Positions 8,711 to 24,403 of a stretch of DNA of 37,183 nt are shown here, piece by piece (the first letter of the stretch is position 1; every line of letters begins with the position of its first letter). The notes beneath the pieces were generated by a model that was not told where the DNA came from, did not search any database, and was given only the letters and a program-made list of their open reading frames with translations. Source of the stretch: Lysobacterales bacterium (GTDB lineage Bacteria; Pseudomonadota; Gammaproteobacteria; Xanthomonadales; Marinicellaceae); assembly GCA_020442725.1 (NCBI GenBank), contig JAGRJO010000003.1:1-37183 (forward strand). Direction: 5' to 3'. The position numbers and the translations under genes are program-made.

Positions 8711-8719
8711 TTTTACGAA

Positions 8720-9025
8720 TTATTTTTGGCTTGCAAAATAAGCCGCTAAATTGTCGATATCAGCATCAGTTAAACCTGCTACCATAGGTGACATTGATGG
8801 ATCTTTTCTTTCGCCATCACGGAAAGCCTTGATTTGTTTTGCAAGATACATTTCTTGTTGTCCTGCAAGATTAGGCCACAAAGGGTTTACCGAATGACCT
8901 GTCGCGCCATGACATGCTGCACAAACGACAGATTTTGCTTTTCCGGCTTCTGCATCGCCAGCGAAAGAGTTTGAAACAGCTAATGTTCCAGTCAGAGCCA
9001 AGCCTAAAATTAATGCTTTTTTCAT
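8720..9025 (-). CDS. Monoheme class I cytochrome c (c553/c4-like)
   Basis: A 101-residue periplasmic electron carrier. A Sec signal peptide (about 1-22, ending NSFA) precedes the haem site Cys35-AA-Cys38-His39. Met81 in SPMVAGL, or nearby Met78, is the likely sixth ligand. The order (GDAEAGKAKSVVCAACHG, then NLAGQQEMYLAKQIKAFRDG, then the Met loop, then DIDNLAAYFA) is that of cytochrome c5/c553 and half a c4. The frame is open further upstream to 9097, but ATG 9025 is chosen because it starts the signal peptide and has AAGAGA upstream. It lies 84 bases after tldD on the same strand. Redox partner is unknown. Confidence 0.9.
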   Translation of the reverse strand: MKKALILGLALTGTLAVSNSFAGDAEAGKAKSVVCAACHGATGHSVNPLWPNLAGQQEMYLAKQIKAFRDGERKDPSMSPMVAGLTDADIDNLAAYFASQK

Positions 9026-9109
9026 ATCAATATCTCTTGTTAAATTAGAAAGCGCTAATATAGCACAATAAAACTGAATTGCAAATGAATCAAGCAAAGT
9101 TATAAAAAA

Positions 9110-10546
9110 TTAGAACTCAGTGCCACCAACAGTTAATTCATCCACTTTTAGCGTTGGTTGACCGATTCCGACTGCCAATGATTGTCCGTCTTTACCACAA
9201 ACACCCATGCCTTGATCGAATTCCAGATTGTTTCCCACCATTGAAACTTTGGTTAAAACAGTTGGGCCGTCACCAATTAAAGTTACACCTTTAACCGGTT
9301 TGGTGATTTTGCCATTTTCAATTAAAAAAGCATCACTGGCTGAAAACACAAATTTACCGTTGGTAATATCAACTTGTCCGCCTCTGAAATTTTCTGCATA
9401 AATTCCTTTTTTAACCGAAGAAATGATTTCATCGTGTTCGTATTTACCGTTCTTCATGTATGTATTGGTCATTCTCGGAATCGGTAAATGAGCAAATGAC
9501 TCACGACGACCATTTCCGGTCGATTTTGTCCCCATCAAACGAGCATTGAGTTTATCCTGCATATAGCCTTTGAGAATGCCATTCTCAATCAGAACGGTTT
9601 CTTGCGATGGCGTTCCTTCATCATCAATGTTGATAGACCCTCTGCGATTCGCAAGATTGCCAGAATCAACAATCGTGCATTGCTCACTAGCGACTTTCTT
9701 GCCGATTTTCCCTGAAAATGCAGAAGTGCCTTTGCGGTTGAAATCACCTTCCAGTCCATGCCCGATAGCTTCATGTAAAAGCACTCCCGGCCAACCCGGA
9801 CCTAGAACAACCGGCATCACTCCGGCAGGAGCAGCAACCGCATCCAGATTGGTTAAAGCTGATTGAACCGCTTGATTAACAAATTGCTCATTGACGCTTT
9901 GTTTGAGTAACTCTTGCAAAGTCAATCTTCCGCCACCACCGGAAAAACCAACTTCCATTCGACCTTTGCCATCATTGGCAATCACCTGAACGCTCAACTT
10001 GACCAACGGACGAATATCCGCCGCAAAAGTACCATCTGTCGCAGCAACCAAAACATAATCTTGCGAAGCAGCCAAAGAACAAATCACCTTTGCAATACGA
10101 GGGTCCGCTTTACGAGCCAGAGTATCCATCTGATTCAACAGAGCAATAATCTCGCGATTATCCACAGCACTTAAAACATCATTCTGTGTGTAATAATTGG
10201 CATAACCTTTTGCTTGAACTTTTTGTGCACGATGCGATTGTGACGCAGCAGCAATTGAACGAGCCGTTTCGACAGCATCTGACAAACCGTCATTAGTTAA
10301 AATATCTGTATAGGCGAAGCCGGTTTTTTCTTGATGATTCACTCTGACACCGACACCCCGATCAATACTGTGAGTTCCGGTTTTGACTTTTTGATCTTCT
10401 AAAACCCAGCTTTCAATTCTGGAAGATTGAAAATACAAATCAGCAAAATCTCCACCGGTTGCCAAACAATTTGACAATGCAGTGTTAATTCTGTTTTCGT
10501 CCAAATCGCCCGAACTCCAAAGATGGTCTTTAACGCTCTCTAACAT
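9110..10546 (-). CDS. tldD: Metalloprotease TldD
   Basis: TldD forms a heterodimer with TldE (PmbA) that digests unfolded peptides. It is known for CcdA antitoxin and microcin B17 processing. The zinc motif HExxxH is His258-Glu259...His263 in LLHEAIGHGLEGD. Length (478 aa) is close to E. coli TldD (481). Other family blocks include IDDEGTPSQETVLIENG and RRESFAHLPIPRMTNTYM. The partner pmbA is not in the window. Upstream is a short divergent gap to yggX, and downstream is a cytochrome c gene. Nothing unusual is seen. Confidence 0.95.
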   Translation of the reverse strand: MLESVKDHLWSSGDLDENRINTALSNCLATGGDFADLYFQSSRIESWVLEDQKVKTGTHSIDRGVGVRVNHQEKTGFAYTDILTNDGLSDAVETARSIAAASQSHRAQKVQAKGYANYYTQNDVLSAVDNREIIALLNQMDTLARKADPRIAKVICSLAASQDYVLVAATDGTFAADIRPLVKLSVQVIANDGKGRMEVGFSGGGGRLTLQELLKQSVNEQFVNQAVQSALTNLDAVAAPAGVMPVVLGPGWPGVLLHEAIGHGLEGDFNRKGTSAFSGKIGKKVASEQCTIVDSGNLANRRGSINIDDEGTPSQETVLIENGILKGYMQDKLNARLMGTKSTGNGRRESFAHLPIPRMTNTYMKNGKYEHDEIISSVKKGIYAENFRGGQVDITNGKFVFSASDAFLIENGKITKPVKGVTLIGDGPTVLTKVSMVGNNLEFDQGMGVCGKDGQSLAVGIGQPTLKVDELTVGGTEF

Positions 10547-10636
10547 AATTGCCTGTAACTACAAATAAGCCCGATATTATCTTTGATTTACCACTGATAA
10601 ACCATAAAATACCTGCAATTAATCCAGAATCAATTC

Positions 10637-10900
10637 ATGAGAACCATAAACTGTATCAAATACGGAGAAAATCAACAAGGACTCGATTACGTCCCTTATC
10701 CGGGTGAACTCGGACAGAAAATCCACAACCAAGTTTCATTAAAATTCTGGCAGGAATGGCTTCAGTATCAAATCATGTTTATCAACGAAAACAGACTCTC
10801 TCCAATCAATCCAAGCGACAGAAAGAAAATTGAACAGCAAATGGAGAAATTCTTTTTTCAAGGTGGTGCAGACAAGATTGAAGGTTATCAACCGGAATAG
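10637..10900 (+). CDS. yggX: Fe(II) trafficking / oxidative protection protein YggX
   Basis: An 87-residue cytosolic protein of the YggX family, which is linked to iron handling and protection of Fe-S clusters from superoxide. Visible family features are the N-terminal cysteine in RTINCIKYG, the block YPGELGQKIHNQVS, the W-x-x-W pair FWQEWLQYQ and MFINENRL, with a C-terminus IEGYQPE. E. coli YggX is 91 aa. It diverges from tldD (90-base gap) and stands alone before tRNA-Phe. In many gammaproteobacteria yggX sits beside mutY, which is absent here. Confidence 0.93.
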   Translation: MRTINCIKYGENQQGLDYVPYPGELGQKIHNQVSLKFWQEWLQYQIMFINENRLSPINPSDRKKIEQQMEKFFFQGGADKIEGYQPE

Positions 10901-10920
10901 AAATTATTTGGAAATAAAGT

Positions 10921-10949
10921 TTGACACTGTGTTTCAAGCTAAATATAAT
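10921..10949 (+). promoter_or_regulatory. Sigma-70 promoter of tRNA-Phe
   Basis: A -35 box TTGACA (10921-10926) and a -10 box TATAAT (10944-10949), both exact consensus, are separated by exactly 17 bases. They lie about 39 bases upstream of the tRNA. The GC-containing stretch GCTCGCTC just after the -10 could act as a discriminator typical of stringently controlled stable RNA genes. Confidence 0.9.
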
Positions 10950-10963
10950 GCTCGCTCAATTTG

Positions 10964-10978
10964 GGTCAGCATCTGACC
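10964..10978. repeat. Palindrome in the tRNA-Phe leader
   Basis: GGTCAG-CAT-CTGACC is a perfect six-base-arm inverted repeat between the tRNA promoter and the tRNA 5' end. It may form a small leader hairpin. The half-site GGGTCAG also appears in the REP-like sequence at 12768-12774. Confidence 0.55.
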
Positions 10979-10987
10979 TCACCGAAT

Positions 10988-11063
10988 GCCCAGTTAGCTC
11001 AGTCGGTAGAGCAGGGGATTGAAAATCCCCGTGTCCGTGGTTCGATTCCGCGACTGGGCACCA
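10988..11063 (+). tRNA. tRNA-Phe (anticodon GAA)
   Basis: A 76-base tRNA with CCA encoded. The acceptor stem is GCCCAGT (10988-10994) with ACTGGGC (11053-11059). The D arm is GCTC/GAGC. The anticodon stem GGGGA/TCCCC encloses loop TTGAAAA, placing anticodon GAA at 11021-11023. The T loop is TTCGATT. ACCA occupies 11060-11063. It appears as a single gene with its own promoter and no tRNA neighbours. Confidence 0.97.
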
Positions 11064-11214
11064 TTTTCGGGTGATATCACTTCATAAATTGCACATCTTG
11101 AAATCAAAAAATCACTCACTTATTCCAACATAAGCTCGTATTTTTTAATTCCAACCTGTATCAATTTCTAAAGCAATTTAGACTCCAAAAACTTAAAAAT
11201 AAACTCGCTTTTTA

Positions 11215-11244
11215 TTGACTCGACCTTGAAAGTTTCTCAATATT
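11215..11244 (+). promoter_or_regulatory. Possible promoter of the chimeric secreted-protein gene
   Basis: TTGACT (11215-11220) and AATATT (11239-11244) are 18 bases apart, about 40 bases before the ATG at 11284. The rest of 11064-11283 is AT-rich and shows no gene. Confidence 0.35.
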
Positions 11245-11283
11245 ATTGCGATAATGTTGCATAGTCATCTAATAAATACTGAA

Positions 11284-12705
11284 ATGGCACGATTATCAAG
11301 ATTGAATTTACCAAATATTACTCAATATATTATACAAAGAGGTAGTAATCGAAGGAAATTCACTTTGGCCTCATTCTTGATTCCATTGATTCCTGTCCTG
11401 ATGTTTATCGGCGAAGTACATTCAGCTACCATAACGGTCGATGGCTCAGATGGCGCTGTTGCTATGGATGGCTTTTGTTCTATTTCTGAGGCAATACAGG
11501 CAGCTAATTCCGATTCAGCAGTCAATGAATGTGCAGCAGGCAGTGGCACAGATACCATCAACTTGAGTACAAATATTACTTTAACCGCTGCATTTGATGA
11601 AGATGCAACTTATGGCAGCACAGGAACCCCGGCTATCAGCAGCAGCCTCTTCATTAATGGTATGGGATTTTCTATAGAACGGCAGTCATCATTAATCTGT
11701 AATTATGATTTTAATAACGACGCCGATGAGTTTCGCCTTTTGCGCACCACTCCATCAGCCAACTTAATCATAAGTCACCTCACTTTAAAAAAAGGTTGTG
11801 CAGATGGCGGTCTTACTGACGGTAGTGGAGCCGGGATTCACAATCTGGGTCATTTATCGATTGAAACAACTGTTATTGCTCTCAACACATCTATTGCAAG
11901 AGGTGCTGGAATTTTTAACCTAGGAACCATAAGCACTATTAAAAACAGCACATTATTAACCAATTCAGCAGGCTATGCAGGAGGTGGAATTTATAATGAG
12001 GGAACCATAGGTACCATCCTCAATAGTACCATCTCAGATAATTATGTAGATGATGGTTCTGGTGGTGGAATATTAAATAACGGAACCGTTGCTGCCATTC
12101 AAAACAGCATCTTCTCGCTTAATGTTGCTAATGAAGGAGGAGGGATTTTAAATGCCGGAATCACAACAACCACGATTCAAAACACCACATTTTCAGGAAA
12201 TTCTGCTGTAAATGGAGGCGGGATTTCTAATCATTCAACCATTGGTGCTATCGAAAACAGCACATTCTCAGGCAATTCAGCAACTTCTATAGGGAAAACC
12301 ATTCGAAATATTGGTATCATTGAAAACCTCAGAAATTCTCTATTTCACAATAACACAACCTCAGGTGGTGCAAATGAGTGTGAAAATAATGGTAGTGCTA
12401 TAATTACTAACAGCAATAACAATATATCTGATGATGCATTCAGCAACTGCCCTGGTGCTTCCACAACACTAACCAGTGCCACAGTAGGTTCACTGGCTGA
12501 TAACGGCGGTCCAACCATGACTCATGCACTTTCAGCTGGTAGCGAAGCGATTGATGCTAGTGGCGTGGGTGCAACAACTACCGATCAACGCGGGTTTTCT
12601 GCGTTTAATGCACGAGATATGGGTGCTTTTGAATACTTAGGTATAGACAATGATCTGATTTTTGAAAATGGTTTTGAAGCTGTCACAATAAATATTATTG
12701 ATTAA
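11284..12705 (+). CDS. Secreted beta-helix (CSLREA / choice-of-anchor Q-like) protein with a RAYT-like N-terminus
   Basis: From ATG 11284 the product has 473 residues. The first ~25 (MARLSRLNLPNITQY, then IIQRGSNRR) match the start of REP-associated Y1 transposases, whose usual form is MARLPRLNLP...QHVIQRGNNRQ. A secretion signal follows directly (FTLASFLIPLIPVLMFIG, cut near VHSA), giving an abnormally long n-region. After it come a CSLREA-type block (FCSISEAIQAANS) and parallel beta-helix turns with repeated GGGI(Y/L/S)N and NSTxSxN units (about 180-360). Next is NGGPTMTHALSAGSEAIDA, as in choice-of-anchor Q domains, and the tail contains NDLIFENGFE. No in-frame ATG lies between the transposase-like part and the signal, so translation probably begins within mobile-element sequence. 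An earlier ATG (11254) is possible. Function is unknown; surface or extracellular location is inferred. Confidence 0.75.
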   Translation: MARLSRLNLPNITQYIIQRGSNRRKFTLASFLIPLIPVLMFIGEVHSATITVDGSDGAVAMDGFCSISEAIQAANSDSAVNECAAGSGTDTINLSTNITLTAAFDEDATYGSTGTPAISSSLFINGMGFSIERQSSLICNYDFNNDADEFRLLRTTPSANLIISHLTLKKGCADGGLTDGSGAGIHNLGHLSIETTVIALNTSIARGAGIFNLGTISTIKNSTLLTNSAGYAGGGIYNEGTIGTILNSTISDNYVDDGSGGGILNNGTVAAIQNSIFSLNVANEGGGILNAGITTTTIQNTTFSGNSAVNGGGISNHSTIGAIENSTFSGNSATSIGKTIRNIGIIENLRNSLFHNNTTSGGANECENNGSAIITNSNNNISDDAFSNCPGASTTLTSATVGSLADNGGPTMTHALSAGSEAIDASGVGATTTDQRGFSAFNARDMGAFEYLGIDNDLIFENGFEAVTINIID

Positions 12706-12720
12706 TATTAATGACCAATG

Positions 12721-12783
12721 GGGTCTGACCATAAACTGACCCTAAAAAACAGTCACTTGGACCAAAAGGGTCAGAGTCAATTG
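12721..12783. repeat. REP/RAYT-associated sequence remnant
   Basis: Just after the chimeric gene are GGGTCTGACC (12721-12730), ACTGACCC (12735-12742) and GGGTCAGAGTCAATTGA (from 12768). The CTGACCC and GGGTCAG half-sites are inverted with a 25-base spacer and can form a hairpin. GGGTCAGAGTCAATTGA-type sequence commonly accompanies RAYT genes of the MARLPRL type, and a CTCAATTGAT echo occurs again near 12812. The rest of 12784-12921 holds no recognisable gene. Confidence 0.5.
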
Positions 12784-12921
12784 ATATAGAGACCGAATCA
12801 AAGGGGGCGAACTCAATTGATAAAAATAATTGAAAACGAGAATGGCTAATTTTATCTATCCTTTTCCAATATCAACTTTTCATTATCTATTGAAATGTTC
12901 ATATTGATTATGAAGTTTGAG

Positions 12922-13257
12922 TTATTGCCTCAGGTTTTCAACACACCTATTCTTTACCCATTCATTGATACTCACATCTTCCGCCTTTGCAGCGAGTGCA
13001 ATCATGTGGTGCAATTCCGGGTCAACACGAAGATTGAATTTACCTGAATAGGTTTTTTCCGGTTGAATACCTTTTTCCTGACAAACATCAAGAAATACTT
13101 TTAAAGAGGTCTCTGCTTCTTTTTTCAAGCTATCAATGTCTTTAGCGTAAAAATCAGCTCCACCGTTTAAACCGATAAACTCACCTCTGAACATATCAAT
13201 TTCAGGGTCATAGCTTATGTGCGCTTTGTATTTGCCAATTTCTAAAATATTATTCAT
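12922..13257 (-). CDS. hicB: HicB-family antitoxin
   Basis: A 111-residue antitoxin. The N-terminal partial RNase H-like fold (IGKYKAHISYDPEIDMFRGEF, with GADFYAKDIDSLKKEAE) would bind and block HicA. The C-terminal part (SGKFNLRVDPELHHMIALAA, then INEWV) is a ribbon-helix-helix DNA-binding domain, so this protein should also repress its own operon. The ATG comes one base after the hicA stop, giving a toxin-first coupled pair. Functional class is clear from sequence, but activity is not known. Confidence 0.9.
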   Translation of the reverse strand: MNNILEIGKYKAHISYDPEIDMFRGEFIGLNGGADFYAKDIDSLKKEAETSLKVFLDVCQEKGIQPEKTYSGKFNLRVDPELHHMIALAAKAEDVSINEWVKNRCVENLRQ

Positions 13258-13258
13258 A

Positions 13259-13507
13259 TCAATACCCGTTATTCTCTAACCAGTTTCTAATTGAGGACAC
13301 AGCACCTTTATCGGTATTAGGACTTGGGTGCGGTCTGTGAAAGACTCTGACCTCATCAAATAAGTACACAGCAATCCTGGATCCTTCTCGTTCTGTTATC
13401 TCCGCTCCCAGTTCCAGAAATAAAGCCTCAATCCTTGACCACTTGATATTTCCACTCACTGGTCTGGATTTGATTAGCTCTAACGTTTTCCTGTGTTTTG
13501 CTTTCAT
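13259..13507 (-). CDS. hicA: HicA-family mRNA interferase toxin
   Basis: An 82-residue toxin with the small dsRBD-like HicA fold, expected to cleave mRNA and be neutralised by HicB. The sequence follows the subfamily that begins KHRKTLE and carries LGAEITEREGSR and VRVFHRPHPSPNTDKGAV. A His in the FHRPHP segment is the candidate catalytic residue, since the short-HicA GSxH motif reads GSR here. It precedes hicB, as is typical. A repeated operator lies directly upstream. There is no other mobile marker next to the pair apart from the REP remnant at 12721. Confidence 0.9.
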   Translation of the reverse strand: MKAKHRKTLELIKSRPVSGNIKWSRIEALFLELGAEITEREGSRIAVYLFDEVRVFHRPHPSPNTDKGAVSSIRNWLENNGY

Positions 13508-13512
13508 ATATT

Positions 13513-13639: not shown

Positions 13640-15247
13640 CTAAATAGAGCCCTGAATAAACTCTAACACCGATTGCAGAAATTCGGAGTCAGAATCAGTT
13701 GAATTGATTTGTCCGGAGATGTCGCGGGTTTCGATTTCTTTGTTGGCAATGGGTTGATTGGTTGTTAAATCACGCAGTGTGAGGATAACGGTGATTCGGT
13801 CTTTGCCCCAAGTCATTTTAGAGATAACCTTAAATTTACTGCTTTTTTTGTAATCGGATATTAGCAATGACAGTCGGTAAGGTTGTGAATAATTAACACA
13901 TTCGTTTTGTATTTTGGCAAAATGCGAATTGATTGACTTATCTTTTCCAAGTTGCTTAACTAAATATTGACGAATGTCTTCAAGCAGTGTATCCGGAGCT
14001 TCATTATCTTTTTTTCTTATCTTATCGGAGTCTTGTTCTAAAACAGAGAGGTGAGCAATTTCGAGACATTTTCCTGTAATGATTGAGTTTTCATCATCTG
14101 TCTTAGCGCTCAAATCATTATTTTGGTCATTTGTTTGCTCATCAATTTGGGTCTTTGATGCATTTTTATCTTTCTCTCCAATATTATTTTCAGCAATAAA
14201 TTCAGTTAATGGGTCGACTTTTTTTTCTGAAGAGCTGTTGCGGGTGTAATTGTACGCCAATGCTGAAATAGTTATTATCGCAACGGCAATTATTGCCAAT
14301 GAAATTTTCTTTTTTCGTTTCCCGATTTGTGTGGGCTGGCTGATTTGTGTGAGCTGATAGCTGATCTTTGAAGTTTTTTCAGCGATTGGATTAATTCTGG
14401 AGCGATGTAAAATCGACTCAAGGTCGCTGTTTTTTTCAACTTTACCGAGTTCGTCCAGAATTTCCTGACAACTTTGACAACGATTCTCAGGATTTTTATC
14501 AATCATTTTCAGCAAAATAGCTGCTGTTTTGTCATCGACTTTAGGGTTGACTTCCTGAATGTTTGCGATATCAGATTCGACGATATCTTTGAGCAAACGG
14601 TAAGGTGTTGTGGTGTCAAAAGGAACATCACCGGCAAGCATTTGATAAAGAACAATGCCCAATGAATAAATATCCGAGCGTTTATCAACGATTTGTCCGG
14701 TGCAGATTTCCGGAGAAAGATATCCGGGTGTCCCTATGACTTCACCTGTTTGCGTGAGATTGCTATCAAAAGTTTTGGACTGAGCAATACCAAAGTCCAT
14801 GAGTTTGAGAAAACCATTGTTGGAAATCAGAATGTTTCCGGGTTTGATATCTCTGTGTATCAGACCGGACTCATGAGCGGCTTGTAAGCCTTCACAGGCT
14901 TGATGCAAAATGTTTTTCGCATGTTCGACATCCAAGGCTCTGTTATCACGCAAGATTTGTGACAGTGATTGACCTTCTATGTATTCCATAGCGAAAAAAG
15001 GCAAACCATTCTCTTCACCAATAAAATGGACGTTGATCACATTTGGATGACTTACCGCTGCCATAGACTTGGCTTCGCGGAAAAATCGTTCTTTGATGTC
15101 ATTGTCCGTAGCCAACTGTGGAGATAAAACTTTTATCGCAACAAAGCGGTGCAGGGCTTCTTCCCAGCATTTATAAACAATAGCCATTCCTCCTCTACCG
15201 AGTTCGGAGCGGACTTCGTAATGACCAAATTGTTCAGGTAACGCCAT
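13640..15247 (-). CDS. Membrane-anchored Hanks-type Ser/Thr protein kinase
   Basis: This 535-residue protein has an intact N-terminal kinase domain (about 8-270). Features are the glycine loop GRGGMA, Lys39 in VAIKV, the alpha-C Glu58, catalytic HRDIKPGN (Asp133), DFG at Asp151 and SPE at 178-180. A cytosolic linker ends in the basic stretch GKRKKK, and one transmembrane helix spans about 315-333. The ~200-residue C-terminal part (acidic, Lys/Asp/Asn-rich, then a compact segment with TWGKDRITVILTLRDL) would be periplasmic. It lacks PASTA repeats and I do not recognise its fold. There is no adjacent PP2C phosphatase. Substrates are unknown. It lies between hicAB and the ribosomal run and appears monocistronic. 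Confidence 0.88.
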   Translation of the reverse strand: MALPEQFGHYEVRSELGRGGMAIVYKCWEEALHRFVAIKVLSPQLATDNDIKERFFREAKSMAAVSHPNVINVHFIGEENGLPFFAMEYIEGQSLSQILRDNRALDVEHAKNILHQACEGLQAAHESGLIHRDIKPGNILISNNGFLKLMDFGIAQSKTFDSNLTQTGEVIGTPGYLSPEICTGQIVDKRSDIYSLGIVLYQMLAGDVPFDTTTPYRLLKDIVESDIANIQEVNPKVDDKTAAILLKMIDKNPENRCQSCQEILDELGKVEKNSDLESILHRSRINPIAEKTSKISYQLTQISQPTQIGKRKKKISLAIIAVAIITISALAYNYTRNSSSEKKVDPLTEFIAENNIGEKDKNASKTQIDEQTNDQNNDLSAKTDDENSIITGKCLEIAHLSVLEQDSDKIRKKDNEAPDTLLEDIRQYLVKQLGKDKSINSHFAKIQNECVNYSQPYRLSLLISDYKKSSKFKVISKMTWGKDRITVILTLRDLTTNQPIANKEIETRDISGQINSTDSDSEFLQSVLEFIQGSI

Positions 15248-24064: not shown

Positions 24065-24136
24065 GAAAAAAATTTGACCCGGTTTTGTATGTTATTTCGA
24101 TGGTGTGAATAAGTCATAATTTTATTGAGGACTATT

Positions 24137-24403
24137 ATGAAATTTAAAAACATAAAAACTAACAACAAACTCCTAATCGCCATTGGTTTGCTCGTTCCAA
24201 TCAGCGTTTTAGCGGATTATCAAATCAGAAAGTTTTCTGTTAATAGTGCATCAGGTTCGAGTTACTCAACACGATTTGATGTCTCCGGCAGTGTCGCTCA
24301 GGTCGATGATAGCAGTATTTTAACAGGAGGAAATTTTCAAATAAATGGTGCCGGTTTCTGGCATCAAAATAACGATTTAATTTTTAAGAATGATTTGGAG
24401 TAG
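24137..24403 (+). CDS. Small secreted protein with NDLIFKN-type C-terminus
   Basis: An 88-residue protein of unknown function. A signal peptide (about 1-26, ...IAIGLLVPISVLA) is followed by a ~50-residue domain (YQIRKFSVNSASGSSYSTRF, then DVSGSVAQVDDSSILTGGNF). It ends GFWHQNNDLIFKNDLE. The last ten residues resemble the tail of the beta-helix protein at 11284-12705 (NDLIFENGFE), suggesting a common C-terminal signal. The frame extends to a TTG at 24125, but ATG 24137 with TTGAGG upstream is chosen. The next gene starts ten bases after its stop, so the two are probably co-translated. Confidence 0.75.
   Translation: MKFKNIKTNNKLLIAIGLLVPISVLADYQIRKFSVNSASGSSYSTRFDVSGSVAQVDDSSILTGGNFQINGAGFWHQNNDLIFKNDLE

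Follow-up and report, generated by a model that had tools for sequence, protein, structure and literature searches.

Organization of the locus

The window, i.e. the whole stretch of 37,183 nucleotides that was analysed, is part of contig C333 of a 2.38-Mb MAG (74.5% complete), which was compared with ten relatives from the same genus. Downstream of yggX (10637-10900) and tRNA-Phe (GAA; 10988-11063, forward strand), an ATG at 11284 opens an ORF of 473 aa on the forward strand (11284-12705), as the first-pass annotation had described; an alternative in-frame ATG further upstream, at 11254, would give a product of 483 aa. The ORF comprises 24 codons that resemble the start of a REP-associated tyrosine transposase (RAYT/TnpAREP; 11284-11355, MARLSRLNLPNITQYIIQRGSNRR), a hydrophobic, predicted signal segment (11356-11427, KFTLASFLIPLIPVLMFIGEVHSA) with likely cleavage after HSA by inspection, and a predicted mature CSLREA/choice-of-anchor Q beta-helix protein (11428-12705) that ends with DLIFENGFEAVTINIID. 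Downstream of this gene, the other strand encodes HicB and a protein kinase. At 12922-13510, HicB (Pfam HicB, 76 bits) is accompanied on the minus strand by a small HicA-like ORF immediately upstream, recognized by reading the sequence; the two are a predicted toxin-antitoxin pair adjoining the variable locus.

The remainder of the ORF matched the choice_anch_Q profile (NF041518) with 58.5 bits against a cut-off of 25, and the body of the protein aligns over its full length with relatives at 41-47% identity. All of the ~450 host codons are intact and the family's invariant residues are kept. An AlphaFold2 model gives a right-handed beta-helix, mostly confident for residues ~43-360 and not so for residues 1-42, with Rhombotarget A (PDB 9CDU, 9CDV) as the top match among solved folds (E 7e-5). 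The body is predicted to be an ordinary family member with a Sec-type signal segment, and the earlier description of a RAYT-type start running in frame into a Sec signal and a beta-helix protein holds. The protein shares with CSLREA/choice-of-anchor Q proteins the family domain, the fold, the predicted signal segment and the presence of paralogues across the genus; it differs from them in its transposase-derived N-terminus and in a C-terminus (DLIFENGFE...) at which no GlyGly-CTERM, the rhombosortase signal, is visible by inspection. Rhombotarget A itself has a C-terminal GlyGly-CTERM signal for rhombosortase. A C-terminal motif close to DLIF(E/K/I)(N/D)GFE is common to this protein, to 24125-24403 and to relatives at four loci (L004, L005, L008, L009), and it is possibly a sorting or secretion tail of secreted proteins in this lineage. 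In Acinetobacter, a CSLREA-domain protein is among the putative substrates listed for type II secretion (PMC9245377).

RAYT origin of the N-terminus

As a 25-residue query, the N-terminus matched a RAYT from genome G027 with 71% identity over 24 aa (E 2.8e-7), and other RAYT N-termini with 67% (G023) and, for G009 from the same genus, 70% over 23 aa. A scan of a collection of 84,980 species returned a sole relative, a true and intact RAYT of 237 aa from another MAG (L148:3001) in which 19 of the 24 residues are identical. At the DNA level, 11265-11354 aligns with the start of the G009 RAYT over 91 columns at 75.8%, the E value of 2e-11 being against a small database of selected loci. The homology ends at codon 24 (position 11354), so that it takes in a leader of ~19 nt (11265-11283, forward strand) having no Shine-Dalgarno sequence, followed by codons 1-24, and residues 1-24 follow the RAYT-conserved N-terminus MARxPRLxLPGxPQHVxQRGNNR. 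This likeness is far beyond chance, and on these alignments the segment is almost certainly derived from a RAYT (NCBIfam NF047646, Pfam PF01797), as had been proposed for the first ~25 residues.

It may be noted that what the locus shares with RAYTs is limited to these residues, the leader and RAYT-end repeats nearby. Full-length reference RAYTs score 51.2 and 57.6 bits for Y1_Tnp (cut-off 23), whereas the 473-aa protein gave no match to Y1_Tnp or any RAYT domain and has no Y1/HUH catalytic domain; neither was Y1_Tnp matched elsewhere in the source genome at its 74.5% completeness. Four residues of the fragment (T13, Y15, S21 and R24) each occur in 0 of 41 intact RAYTs, two of them at near-invariant positions (H15 in 41 of 41 and N21 in 40 of 41 intact RAYTs). 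Such drift fits a fragment that has been freed of transposase constraint; the sites are too few to test selection formally.

Choice of the start codon

All of the ten relatives start with ATG and have K or R near the start, their signal peptides are 17-30 aa long, and in 8 of them the Shine-Dalgarno energies range from -3.9 to -7.8 kcal/mol. The relatives' own ATG falls at the join, at about codon 24, where the RAYT homology stops. Counting back from the HSA site leads to the same place, which is now AGG (11353-11355, forward strand) followed by KFTLASFL, and where the native start would have been MKFTLASFLIPLIPVLMFIGEVHSA. Since family members start with ATG there, the join appears to have destroyed the native ATG and the RAYT piece to have replaced the native start; we infer this loss from the family, the closest homologues found being ~48% identical and none of them an unfused orthologue.

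The first-pass annotation had stated that no other ATG is available before the signal peptide. This is so between 11284 and the hydrophobic core, but a TTG at 11365-11367 (forward strand), 7 nt downstream of an AAGGA Shine-Dalgarno sequence (-5.7 kcal/mol), offers an alternative start, from which the signal peptide would lack a basic n-region. No Shine-Dalgarno sequence was found upstream of ATG 11284, which gives no support to the idea of a ribosome binding site supplied by the RAYT. However, many genes of this organism, yggX, epmA and rimM among them, also have none, and ATG 11284 would therefore be workable. The RAYT ATG is most likely the start in use, with TTG 11365 as its main rival.

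Upstream sequence and promoter candidates

The DNA between tRNA-Phe and the RAYT-derived leader is largely made up of a genus-typical repeat. Copy 1 (11074-11192, forward strand) was recognized by its match to relatives, where the same sequence follows tRNA-Val in three genus genomes and lies near tRNA-Lys and tRNA-Leu in others. A partial copy 2 (11193-11240, forward strand) scored higher against trailer repeats in six loci than all of 300 shuffles. This genus-specific repeat of ~120 nt is often present as two tandem copies directly 3′ of, or near, several different tRNA genes; its loci are 11074-11240 in the window and L128, L129, L130, L131, L132 and L137, and Rfam gave no match in the window region besides the tRNA.

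A candidate promoter, TTGAAA-18-GATAAT (11226-11255), begins inside copy 2, its -35 box (11226-11231) lying wholly within the tRNA-trailer repeat, which speaks against the earlier claim that the RAYT supplied the promoter. The region as a whole has 7 promoter-like sites against 6.6 in shuffles, i.e. no excess. A 12/12 match to the sigma-70 consensus (TTGACA-17-TATAAT; 10921-10949, forward strand) is the predicted promoter of tRNA-Phe by consensus match alone, and it may also serve the gene through read-through, no terminator-like site having been found between tRNA-Phe and the gene. So what can be credited to the RAYT is the start codon, the ~19 nt leader and the 24 codons, in frame; its supply of a promoter or a ribosome binding site finds no support. 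Two candidates for RAYT-derived DNA further upstream were dropped on the ground that the tRNA-trailer repeats match better: a likeness of 11215-11265 to the sequence upstream of the G023 RAYT (p ~0.01, one of nine tests), and an inverted RAYT-end repeat seen by eye at 11213-11237.

Repeats downstream of the gene

The REP/RAYT-like sequences reported just after the gene, GGGTCTGACC (12721) and GGGTCAGAGTCAATTGA (12768), are both present. The former, together with CTGACCCT, makes up fragments resembling RAYT-end repeats at 12721-12743 (forward strand). The latter is the RAYT-end repeat type of the lineage, with copies in G009 at -47 relative to the ATG and immediately behind the stop, and it belongs to a tandem pair with 36-nt spacing (12762-12822, minus strand) whose reverse complement matches the tandem repeats that follow the RAYT stop in G009 and G023. 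These are real RAYT-end repeats, but at the right end of an element with this forward-strand gene inside it such repeats should have the opposite orientation, and so they do not fit one single element. A RAYT gene typically stands between two repeats that are inverted relative to each other (PMC2817692); here there is no inverted pair around the gene, the repeats being present only downstream while a tRNA-trailer repeat lies upstream. The likeliest reading is that they were left behind by RAYT-related activity nearby. Genome-wide, GGGGTCAGA was not enriched (5 sites against 5 for the control), and a near-exact repeat of AAGGAAATTCACTTTG at 11352 and 13563 was judged a likely chance match.

Distribution of the fusion and related joins

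Only one MAG contig is known to carry the fusion locus. No other fusion of a RAYT start to a CSLREA gene was found in 11 genus genomes, nor, among the matches listed, in 398 genomes of the order. The sister genome G001 is 99.7% identical over 8713-11035, through yggX and up to tRNA-Phe, inside which its contig ends; at the kinase (13641-14762) the identity is 90.5%, and a different CSLREA-type gene lies beside it (contigs C251 and C252 were assumed to be neighbours). For these reasons G001 could not be used as an unfused reference. This fall in identity across tRNA-Phe, with different genes in between, looks like a recombination or gene-turnover boundary at the tRNA.

In ~760 genomes of the order and class, we found two in-frame joins of a RAYT to another gene among the matches listed, both to RHS. 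In G340 (L202:567-5555) a RAYT N-terminus stands in frame before a secreted RHS-repeat protein of 1663 aa that has its own internal start, MTMKL, and in G565 (L271:394-1695) 40 residues of RAYT sequence continue into an RHS core fragment (434 aa). About 40 of 150 of the matches listed have open frames of at most 165 aa, many of them truncated RAYTs; when examined as possible RAYT N-termini before other genes, most odd open frames proved to be truncated or frameshifted RAYTs. The suggestion that such surface proteins are being spread finds no second copy in the genus and only these two joins, both RHS, among the matches listed.

Further RAYT 5′ pieces were also seen. At L254 (G432:C51:17000-20883) a 182-nt unit is present in four copies (1016-1197, 1912-2093, 2183-2364 and 2520-2701), each consisting of ~100 nt of leader and 25 RAYT codons with 82-90% identity to one reference copy; in 3 of the 4 the codons are directly followed by a stop, beyond which lie RAYT-end repeats or a palindrome, GTGGGAGCGAATTC, of REP-like type. 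This is a RAYT-derived mini-unit that has multiplied. At L255, L256 and L257 (G439, G554 and G520), partial duplications of a RAYT 5′ end (39-83 codons) lie directly upstream of an intact RAYT and 250-350 nt apart from it; the three genomes belong to different families, and the pattern is a recurring tandem left-end duplication.

Discussion

We propose that a RAYT element decayed and that its 5′ end, the ~19 nt leader and codons 1-24, remained downstream of tRNA-Phe. A deletion or insertion would then have fused this piece to the part of a CSLREA/choice-of-anchor Q gene that encodes the signal peptide, with the native ATG removed or mutated at the present codon 24. Translation from the RAYT ATG would yield a signal peptide of ~48 aa whose n-region, basic and unusually long, derives from the transposase; signal peptidase would cut this off and leave the mature exported beta-helix unchanged. 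Transcription would probably come from host sequence and not from the RAYT, either from the promoter in the tRNA-trailer repeat or by read-through from the tRNA-Phe promoter. This whole chain, from decay and join to the use of the RAYT ATG, is in our judgement more likely than not, and it looks more like a one-off product of genome debris than like a system that spreads. As a caution on any functional reading, an in-frame join without any function has a one-in-three chance.

In the main rival reading, the gene starts at TTG 11365 and the RAYT sequence before it is a remnant, untranslated or incidental, that is in frame by chance. The spacing there is ideal and the duplex is in about the best 10% of random 20-mers, while ATG 11284 has none; the relatives employ strong Shine-Dalgarno sequences, and the RAYT N-terminus in G340 precedes a protein that still has its own start. 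Yet the resulting signal peptide (MASFLIPLIPVLMFIGEVHSA) would have no basic residue, against K or R near the start and an ATG in every one of the ten relatives, and we consider a TTG start unlikely. It is still less likely, though conceivable, that the start was lost to RAYT debris and that the gene is poorly expressed or becoming a pseudogene, its frame open only by recency: the missing Shine-Dalgarno sequence, the drifted RAYT residues and the gene-turnover locus adjoining tRNA-Phe would agree with this, but the intact host codons and conserved invariant residues argue against it.

The first-pass annotation had pictured a RAYT element with the beta-helix gene as cargo, giving it promoter, ribosome binding site and start and spreading surface proteins. 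A RAYT start 5′ of the gene and RAYT-end repeats 3′ of it are what such an element would show; however, the DNA upstream is tRNA-trailer repeat as far as 11240 and lacks a left-end repeat, the reversed downstream repeats speak against a composite element, and neither the genus nor, among the matches listed, the order sample holds a second copy, so that this model is highly improbable. An assembly chimera is more improbable still. A single incomplete MAG and a sister contig that breaks at tRNA-Phe might suggest one, but no long shared word is evident at the junction, both sides form one open frame, and RAYT is otherwise absent from the MAG.

The preferred reading, a RAYT fragment turned into a host gene start, has a partial likeness in large autotransporters, whose extended signal peptide region has a long basic N-terminal extension; the sequence and origin are unrelated, and there is no autotransporter barrel here. 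In a literature search of partial coverage, a RAYT N-terminus joined to a signal peptide did not turn up in any publication. An exapted N-terminus would be tolerable because the signal peptide is removed. The two RAYT/RHS joins and the many RAYT 5′ fragments suggest recurring debris that is occasionally exapted. It is doubtful, though worth stating, that in gammaproteobacteria RAYT 5′ ends, comprising the leader and the first 24-40 codons, are shed and duplicated often enough to provide nearby host genes repeatedly with start codons and N-termini, in this case a surface beta-helix gene and elsewhere RHS genes. If translation does start in the RAYT segment, the locus would be a clear bacterial case in which a piece of a mobile element has been exapted and forms the translated N-terminus of a host protein that is exported. 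The locus also draws attention to RAYT 5′ fragments as under-annotated debris of genomes, which can obscure gene starts and may on occasion rewire them.
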